Assembly: GCA_020851115.1 (NCBI GenBank)
Contig: JADZDJ010000200.1
Location: forward strand, 1-34,411
Origin: Pirellulales bacterium
GTDB lineage: Bacteria > Planctomycetota > Planctomycetia > Pirellulales > JADZDJ01
DNA: 34,411 nt
Direction: 5' to 3'
Made by a program: the position numbers and the translations under genes. The notes beneath the pieces are model-generated. The model had not been told where the DNA came from. It searched no databases and was given only the letters and a program-made list of their open reading frames with translations. Shown piece by piece: positions 5,698-8,379 of the stretch. Within the stretch, counting starts at the first letter, position 1. Each line of letters starts with the position of its first letter.

Positions 5698-8379
5698 ATG
5701 GCAGATACTCCCATGATGCGGCAATATCGCGAGGCGAAAGCGGCCTGTGGCGATGCGCTGTTGCTGTTTCGGATGGGAGATTTTTACGAGCTGTTTCACG
5801 ACGATGCGCGAACGGCGGCGCGGCTGTTGGGGTTGGCGCTGACCAGCCGCGACAAAGGCGAAAATGCCACGCCGATGGCAGGTTTTCCGCATCATCAACT
5901 CGAGAGCTATTTGGGGAAGCTCGTTTCGCTCGGCGTGCGCGTGGCGATCTGTGAGCAGATGGAAGACCCGCGGCTGGCCAAGGGGCTCGTGAAACGCGAA
6001 GTGACGCGCGTGGTGACGCCGGGAACGCTCACCGACGATGCGCTACTGGATCCGCGGGAGAGCAATTATCTGGCGGCGGTGATTGGCGGTGGCGACAAGG
6101 AGCAAGCTTCCGTCGGATTGGCCTGGGTCGAGCTATCGACGGGGCGATTTCATGCCGCGGTGTTCGCGCGCGAGAAGCTCGCCGACCAGTTGGCGAGGAT
6201 CGATGCGGCGGAATGCCTGGTGGACGAGCAGTCGGAGTTGCTGCCCGCGAATCGAAATGGCCCGTTGGCAGGACAGGCATCTTTGCCCATCCGCGGTGCG
6301 CCGGTGGCGGCAGACAGGAATGTCTGTCCCGCGAAGACTCTCTATACGCGGCGGCCGACTTGGGCGTTTTCTTTGCAAACGGCGACACAAGCCTTAACAA
6401 AGCAGTTTGGTACGGCGACGCTCGAAGGGTTTGGGTTCGACAATGAACGAGACGCGCTGGCGCTGCGGGCGGCCGGGGCGATTTTGGATTACTTGGCGGA
6501 AACGCAAAAAACTTCGCTCGCGCATCTCGATCGACTGTTGCCTTATTACACCGGCACGACGCTGGAGATCGACGAATCGACGCGCCGGAGCTTGGAAATC
6601 AGCCGCACGATGCGCGACGGCCGGCGAGAAGGATCGCTGCTGGCAGTGCTCGACCGCACCACGACGGCCATGGGTTCGCGACACCTGGCAGACTGGGTGG
6701 CGAATCCGCTGGTGAACTTGACCGAGATCGACGAGCGGCTCGACGCGGTTGCGGAGTTGGTTGCCGACGGGCGGATGGCCGACGAATTGCGCGAGAAACT
6801 GCGCGGCATTTACGACATTCAGCGGCTGCTGGCTCGCATCACCACCGGCCGGGCGAGCCCGCGAGATCTTGCACACCTTGGACAAACGCTGTCGGCGCTG
6901 CCGGCGGTGAAGGCGAAGATGACCGGCCGAAACAGCGTATTGCTTTCGCGACTGGAGGCGGAAGTCGATCTTTGTCCCGAGATTCGCGCCCGATTGGAAT
7001 CAGCGCTGGTGGACAATTGCCCTCTTCAGAGCCGCGAAGGAGGCATGATTCGAGCGGGCTTTAACGCTGACCTGGACAACTTGCACGAACTGGCGGCCGG
7101 GGGCAAGCAGTGGATCGCGCGGTATCAAGCGGATGAGTCGGCCCGCACGGGGATTTCAACGCTGAAAGTCGGCTTCAACAAAGTGTTCGGCTACTACATC
7201 GAAGTCACCCATACGCACGGCCATAAGATTCCAGAAAATTACACGCGCAAGCAGACGGTGAAGAATGCCGAGCGATATATCACGCCGGAATTGAAGGAAT
7301 ACGAGGAGCGTGTGCTGACGGCGGATGAACGCTCGAAGGAACTGGAGTATGAACTATTCGTGCAGCTTCGCGATTTTGTCGCCGCGCATGCCAAGCGATT
7401 GCAAGCGACCGCCCATGCGCTGGCGCAGCTCGATGTGCTGGCGGCGCTGGCCGATTTGGCGCGGGCGAGAAATTACTGCCGGCCGAAGTTGGTTGAAGGA
7501 CCGACGCTGACGATTCGCGACGGCCGTCATCCGGTGCTCGATTCGCTGATGCCGGAAGGTTCGTTTGTGCCAAACGACACGGAGGCCGCGGCGGATGGGC
7601 TGATTTTGCTCATCACCGGGCCGAACATGGCGGGCAAGAGCACATACATTCGGCAGGTTGCGCTCGTTTCGCTACTGGCGCAGATTGGCAGTTTTGTACC
7701 GGCCAAGGAAGCAACACTGGGGCTGTGCGATCGCATTTTTGCCCGCGTCGGGGCCAGCGATGAACTCAGCCGCGGTCAGAGCACCTTTATGGTTGAAATG
7801 ACCGAAACCGCCCGTATTTTGAACACCGCAACGGCGCGAAGTCTGGTGATTCTCGACGAAATTGGCCGCGGCACGAGCACCTACGACGGCGTGTCACTGG
7901 CTTGGGCGGTCGTCGAGTTCTTGCACGACCGCATCGCCTGCCGCACGCTGTTCGCGACCCATTATCACGAGCTGACCGATCTGGCGAAAACGCTTGGTAG
8001 CGTGCGGAATTTGAACGTGGCGGTGCGAGAATGGGAAGACCAGGTCGTCTTCTTGCATAAAATCATCGAAGGGGCGGCCGACAAGAGCTACGGCATTCAC
8101 GTCGCTCGCTTGGCCGGCGTGCCACGGGAGGTGAATGAGCGGGCGAAGCAAATATTGGCACAGCTCGAACAAGAACACTTGGGCGAGGACGATCGCCCCA
8201 AGCTGGCACGCCGGGGTAAAACTCGCCGCGTCGGCGATTTACAACTAACGTTGTTTGCGGTGGAAGAGCATCTTGTGGTCAAGCAGTTGCGGGAGTTGAA
8301 CGTGAACGAGCTGTCGCCGCTGGCGGCGCTGCAAGTGCTTGAGCAGATGCAGGCGGAGTTGAAGTCGTTGCAGCAGTAG
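5698..8379 (+). CDS. mutS: DNA mismatch repair protein MutS
   Basis: An 893-residue mismatch-recognition ATPase. The mismatch-reading loop GDFYELF carries F29 and E31, the Phe-x-Glu pair that stacks on and contacts the mispaired base. A connector domain follows (about 125-290), then the lever/clamp domains, with FNKVFGYYIEVT and ENYTRKQTVKNAERYIT near residues 496-525. The ATPase has Walker A GPNMAGKST (641-649), Walker B LVILDEIGRG with D720-E721, and ATHYHEL after it. The ATG at 5698 gives the canonical N-terminus; the frame is open upstream but that part is not MutS-like. Within the connector domain, residues about 192-211 are encoded by a short inverted-repeat element (separate entry) that standard MutS lacks. 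All catalytic residues are intact, so the protein is probably functional. No mutL is present in the window, and the flanking genes are unrelated. Confidence 0.98.
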   Translation: MADTPMMRQYREAKAACGDALLLFRMGDFYELFHDDARTAARLLGLALTSRDKGENATPMAGFPHHQLESYLGKLVSLGVRVAICEQMEDPRLAKGLVKREVTRVVTPGTLTDDALLDPRESNYLAAVIGGGDKEQASVGLAWVELSTGRFHAAVFAREKLADQLARIDAAECLVDEQSELLPANRNGPLAGQASLPIRGAPVAADRNVCPAKTLYTRRPTWAFSLQTATQALTKQFGTATLEGFGFDNERDALALRAAGAILDYLAETQKTSLAHLDRLLPYYTGTTLEIDESTRRSLEISRTMRDGRREGSLLAVLDRTTTAMGSRHLADWVANPLVNLTEIDERLDAVAELVADGRMADELREKLRGIYDIQRLLARITTGRASPRDLAHLGQTLSALPAVKAKMTGRNSVLLSRLEAEVDLCPEIRARLESALVDNCPLQSREGGMIRAGFNADLDNLHELAAGGKQWIARYQADESARTGISTLKVGFNKVFGYYIEVTHTHGHKIPENYTRKQTVKNAERYITPELKEYEERVLTADERSKELEYELFVQLRDFVAAHAKRLQATAHALAQLDVLAALADLARARNYCRPKLVEGPTLTIRDGRHPVLDSLMPEGSFVPNDTEAAADGLILLITGPNMAGKSTYIRQVALVSLLAQIGSFVPAKEATLGLCDRIFARVGASDELSRGQSTFMVEMTETARILNTATARSLVILDEIGRGTSTYDGVSLAWAVVEFLHDRIACRTLFATHYHELTDLAKTLGSVRNLNVAVREWEDQVVFLHKIIEGAADKSYGIHVARLAGVPREVNERAKQILAQLEQEHLGEDDRPKLARRGKTRRVGDLQLTLFAVEEHLVVKQLRELNVNELSPLAALQVLEQMQAELKSLQQ
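6271..6329. repeat. REPIN/MITE-like inverted-repeat element inside mutS
   Basis: GGACAGGCAT (6271-6280) and ATGTCTGTCC (6320-6329) are inverted copies with one mismatch, bounding a 59-base segment. Inside the right end there is a second small dyad (GACAG...CTGTC). The translated segment GQASLPIRGAPVAADRNVCP sits in a surface loop of the connector domain, where E. coli MutS has a shorter link. I recall GACAGGAATGTCTGTC-like segments as common dispersed repeats in planctomycete genomes, but I cannot search here. Confidence 0.55.

Follow-up and report, generated by a model that had tools for sequence, protein, structure and literature searches.

The mutS gene of a Pirellulales bacterium very probably carries, captured in frame in the loop of its connector domain, a copy of a dispersed family of REPIN-like REP dimers of the GTAG class. 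The gene lies in a window of 34,411 nt (the whole stretch of DNA that was analysed), which is contig C200 of a 5.2 Mb genome (G000) in 304 contigs. The features that concern the insert are as follows.

5698..8379, + strand: mutS, 893 amino acids from the ATG, frame open through the element (translation; NCBIfam PRK05399 and mutS1; Pfam MutS_I to MutS_V)
6064..6531, + strand: MutS connector, Pfam MutS_II, residues 123-278, host of the insert (Pfam; low-confidence loop in an otherwise confident model)
6268..6332, + strand: REP dimer (REPIN-like), 65 nt (match to the family model R1, 40.1 bits, by a copy outside the model; family consensus)
6268..6292, + strand: left REP arm, more decayed (alignment to consensus)
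6309..6332, - strand: right REP arm, near consensus, holding the 17-mer bait (alignment to consensus)

The host ORF matches the NCBIfam MutS model with 1073.6 bits, and MutS matches were obtained in 54 of the order's 57 genomes. The original prediction described inverted copies of GGACAGRCAT within mutS, and these are present exactly as described, GGACAGGCAT at 6271-6280 on the + strand and GGACAGACAT at 6329-6320 on the - strand. It took them to bound a 59-base segment. The inverted-repeat ends are confirmed, but the element measures 65 nt, namely the 59 nt plus both feet, and 59 is not a multiple of 3. The limits of the element (6268-6332) were set by R1, which matched over its full length (1-67 of 67); the full inverted repeat is wider, with arms of 16 nt each at 6265-6280 and 6320-6335 that are 81% complementary. 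The reading frame is open throughout and the element encodes MutS residues 191-212 (22 residues), in agreement with the predicted in-frame insert of about 20 residues. The copy is arranged as a GTAG-type dimer, with two palindromic REPs in inverted orientation around a short spacer and a GTAG-like tetranucleotide at the outer foot of each palindrome (GCAG on the left; GCGG on the right, read inward on the - strand). Counting against this reading, the copy has diverged, its left arm is clearly decayed and the palindrome of the left REP itself is degraded. The short arms alone are a weak signal, with 6 matches in the 34 kb at up to 1 mismatch against 2.93 expected, and an Rfam search of the window gave no match.

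The element is dispersed in the genome, as the original prediction had supposed. A full-length DNA search of the genome returned the mutS copy itself as its one match, along with several right-arm matches; plain BLASTN would miss the family because the copies diverge. Taken alone, this search would have pointed wrongly to a single copy. The right-arm 17-mer occurs 26 times in the genome when up to 3 mismatches are allowed, in comparison to 3 times for the reversed control. Judging from their flanks, several of these matches are each one half of an inverted dimer whose feet are GTAG-like. R1, a covariance model, was built from 7 complete dimers elsewhere in the genome, with the mutS copy left out. 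Its genome search gave 49 matches over both strands, corresponding to 26 places at E<=10, of which 18 are at E<=0.001. The held-out mutS copy scored 40.1 bits (E 3e-6 genome-wide), which puts it 7th of the 11 places at E<=0.001 that had not been used for training; the training copies had been baited with its own right arm, so that only the left arm, the feet and the spacing are tested with full independence. The family architecture consists of two inverted GTAG-class REPs with a GYRG foot and the arm GGCAGGCATTCCTGCCTGYC, the foot being GTGG, GTAG, GCGG or GCAG in most copies. In a 42-match alignment, 83.4% of cells are paired in the long hairpin versus 32-45% when slid by 1-3 columns, although this alignment was fitted to that structure, its rows represent both strands of most elements, and shuffle controls were less decisive.

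We compared MutS proteins over the best 30 loci, consisting of the window's own and 29 relatives from the order. The linker from the conserved E172 to W222 spans 51 residues in the window MutS. The same linker has 27 residues in 21 of the 29 relatives, 25-26 in two and 31-60 in six. Across a wider set of MutS proteins, its median is 32 and its maximum 41 residues (72 of 80 loci, 8 having been excluded beforehand as partial or irregular). The element-encoded residues are absent from E. coli MutS in the alignment, as had been predicted, and the GQxxLP motif was not found in any other aligned MutS (29 order relatives and 72 from the wider set). Thus, the outcome that had been named as contrary to capture, a single copy in the genome together with an ancestral loop in distant MutS proteins, was found on neither count. 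An AlphaFold2 (AF2) model of residues 1-410, computed from an alignment of 73 sequences, has a mean pLDDT of 91.7. Only residues 193-207, inside 191-212, fall below 50, and this low-confidence loop is placed between predicted strands 172-176 and 215-219. A single-sequence AF2 model (mean pLDDT 36.5) was discarded in favor of the 73-sequence model. The held-out R1 match, the excess linker length and the predicted disorder together bear out a REPIN-like, inverted-repeat element captured in frame in the MutS connector (Pfam MutS_II). The description of the host as an essential repair gene has to be corrected, since mutS is a non-essential gene.

It is quite unlikely that the segment is an ancient MutS loop that evolves fast and looks like the repeat by coincidence. 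Linker length does vary within the family (51 residues in the window, 60 and 37 in the two other genomes), and the window and G002, a genome of the same family, have short flanking motifs in common (NRNG and NQNG). However, such a loop does not sit well with a held-out, full-length match with both feet at the genome-wide E-value given above, nor with the confinement of GQxxLP to this one MutS among those aligned. The 60-residue linker of G002 occupies the same connector site and exceeds the modal 27 by 33 residues. It was considered as another dispersed repeat and rejected, as it has no dispersed copies and its best other match has an E-value of 0.0435. Since the insert of G002 is even longer and yet non-repetitive, the loop may already have been enlarged by the time the mutS element was inserted. 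Like this linker, a further result counts against capture: R1 finds nothing at E<=0.001 in the same-family genomes G001 and G002, which therefore offer no close empty site.

Transfer as a MITE by a non-RAYT transposase is highly unlikely. This explanation would take two direct 8-nt copies of CCCGCGAA (6244-6251 and 6328-6335) as a target duplication, and one unit of this repeat comes to 84 nt, which is divisible by 3. The right copy, however, overlaps the right foot, and the left copy is separated from the left foot by 16 nt; the ends of the element are not marked by a target-site duplication flanking the inverted repeats, as in a classical MITE. A hand calculation gives an expectation of about 0.3 such 8-mer pairs per 200 nt, and the 23-residue insert of an ATP-grasp protein from the same genome equals a 68-nt element plus one base, which leaves no room for a duplication. 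The direct repeat probably arose by chance. It is also quite unlikely that the insert was adopted for a function, for example in tuning the connector-MutL contact or as an mRNA hairpin. The connector is a MutL-contacting domain in E. coli MutS, and a same-family genome also has a repeat in a connector loop, but residues 193-207 are predicted to be disordered, the single DNA strand of the element folds mildly better than shuffles (z -1.90), and the copies in unrelated proteins argue for tolerance.

Capture of the REP dimer in frame is seen in other genes of the genome, in keeping with the expectation that the same peptide would recur in unrelated proteins. Besides MutS, family copies are found in frame in the ATP-grasp protein and in a NuoL-like Proton_antipo protein (Pfam), and a secreted, trypsin-like protease contains a fourth, probable in-gene copy after its signal peptide. 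The encoded peptides are xGQxxLP-like: VGQTFPPAESRSPLLVDKNDFPT in the ATP-grasp, AEQAWLPAVVATKLADANACST in the NuoL-like and AGQTLLSTTRLAQCSVLADKDACST in the trypsin-like protein, compared to AGQASLPIRGAPVAADRNVCPA in MutS. Codon statistics indicate that both flanks code in one frame for the MutS, NuoL-like and ATP-grasp copies, and the left flank of the trypsin-like copy is weak. The in-gene count leaves out the remaining 22 of the 26 places; copies near ORF starts, such as those at a Radical-SAM gene (L220) and on C56, were not counted because the gene may start downstream. The ATP-grasp copy is the cleanest of the other in-gene cases. It adds 23 residues between two Pfam stretches of one domain, and all 26 aligned relatives lack them (30 loci, consisting of the own protein, the 26 aligned and 3 dropped with the anchor motif on no ORF). 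The NuoL-like copy sits in a loop that varies in length and composition, and its limits are less clear (30 loci, consisting of the own protein, 24 aligned relatives, one of them partial, and 5 dropped).

In all four in-gene copies, a codon begins at the first base of the GYRG foot, resulting in xGQx or xEQx. Given open frames, the chance of all four falling in frame 1 is 1/27, and their common frame is suggestive only. A strict frame rule was rejected in view of this chance and of a copy in genome G036 (L299) that uses another frame. For the GTCAGGC family, which belongs to other genomes, working through the frames by hand showed that the choice is mostly dictated by stop codons. A rule by which the insert equals the element length plus 1 nt was also rejected; it fits the own in-gene copies (65, 65, 68 and 74 nt) but not those of genome G006 (52, 73 and 88 nt).

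We propose that a past copying event placed a REP dimer in the mutS connector loop, between the two predicted strands. The frame used lacks a stop codon (GCA GGA CAG GCA ...), so that the dimer is translated as a flexible 22-residue surface linker, likely tolerated because the connector loop already varies in length. The insert would be neutral rather than beneficial, and copies that broke genes would have been lost by selection. The copying may have been performed in trans by a RAYT-type (REP-associated tyrosine) transposase. Passages of PMC3733652 discuss the movement of GTAG REP dimers by RAYTs as a hypothesis. The genome contains one RAYT-like gene (C183), which matches NF047646 with 64.8 bits as a protein and 66.1 bits in the genome scan, below the curated cut-off of 80. 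A RAYT is usually, though not universally, flanked by the same REP, and no copy of the mutS-element REP was found within about 1.4 kb on either side of this gene. RAYT matches at E<=1e-8 are present in 41 of the order's 57 genomes. Generic GYRG dimers are present in 6 of 20 RAYT neighbourhoods (L372, L373, L379, L382, L384 and L385) versus 1 in 406,750 control bases, where the neighbourhoods were taken from REP-bearing genomes and L372 was cut to include an already-known copy 2 kb off. At L382 (G036), REPs directly flank the RAYT. Since RAYT-REP adjacency is seen elsewhere while the own RAYT-like gene has no family REP beside it, we infer, rather than observe, the action of a RAYT on the family of the mutS element.

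REPINs (PMC3116915) are inverted REP doublets that occur in many copies. The mutS-element family has this structure, but it is low in copy number, its copies have diverged, and its link to a RAYT is putative. GTAG REPs inside genes of several species, with dimers encoding 20-30 residues, are reported in passages of PMC3733652, according to which many hosts of such intragenic REPs act in DNA synthesis and repair, and the GTAG foot degenerates to GYRG or GTGG in some families. PVC bacteria are among the organisms covered there. The degenerate foot, the inverted short-spacer dimers, the dispersal and the intragenic copies are features in common with the GTAG REPs of these passages. The host gene differs, as mutS has no mention in the main text there. 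The RPEs of Rickettsia are palindromic repeats tolerated in frame within conserved protein genes (passages of PMC2229807 and PMC3733652). The present family likewise has one repeat translated in several unrelated proteins, but RPEs are described as 105-146 nt long and belong to other organisms, compared to the 65 nt of the mutS element. In a literature search, we found no publication on a REP within the mutS connector, and the peptides VGQAFQPD, QAGKPDL, GRNACPT and VGQAFLP had no occurrence in the literature searched. In-frame intragenic REP capture is thus already known, and mutS is an added host among the repair genes that carry REPs.

R1 has matches at E<=0.001 in 11 of 57 genomes, the own included, and a closer look covered 61 places in the ten other genomes. 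REP dimers of other sequence are also found in frame in genes (G006 and G017). The Pfam domain of a G006 protein kinase (L329), which has a paralogue (L330), spans a REP dimer. The dimer of L329/L330 encodes VGQAFQPD...QAGKPDLH. In a multicopy gene family of G017, six members (L287, L288, L290, L291, L292 and L293) share the position of a REP dimer; this family may be a mobile element spreading a captured repeat. L287, on which Pfam was run, has an AAA_25 domain with the insert behind it. The G001 MutS (L056) contains a different in-frame insert in a neighbouring connector loop, the one after YLAAVV (DNA at G001:C114:5248-5363, L190). The second half of this insert matches a dispersed hairpin repeat, CTCTCCC...GGGAGAGGG, found 25 times in G001 and 12 times in G002. 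In the own genome, an IS200-like Y1 transposase gene (L069, C45:338-685) is surrounded by GC-rich palindromes of its own, which form a second repeat family.

The present case is a clean and checkable example of a mobile repeat becoming a protein loop; it concerns several genes of a single genome, among them one for a mismatch-repair protein. Several REP families of one order enter genes, which opens linker birth by repeat capture to comparative study. The broader idea that captured REP dimers are a recurrent linker source across the order, mostly in one frame (xGQx...) and with the MutS connector as a favored landing place, is possible but doubtful. On this view, one lineage would have acquired a REP dimer there, and a same-family genome an unrelated dispersed repeat in the adjacent loop. 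If it is true, and if such loops alter MutL coupling, mobile repeats could tune the mutation rate.
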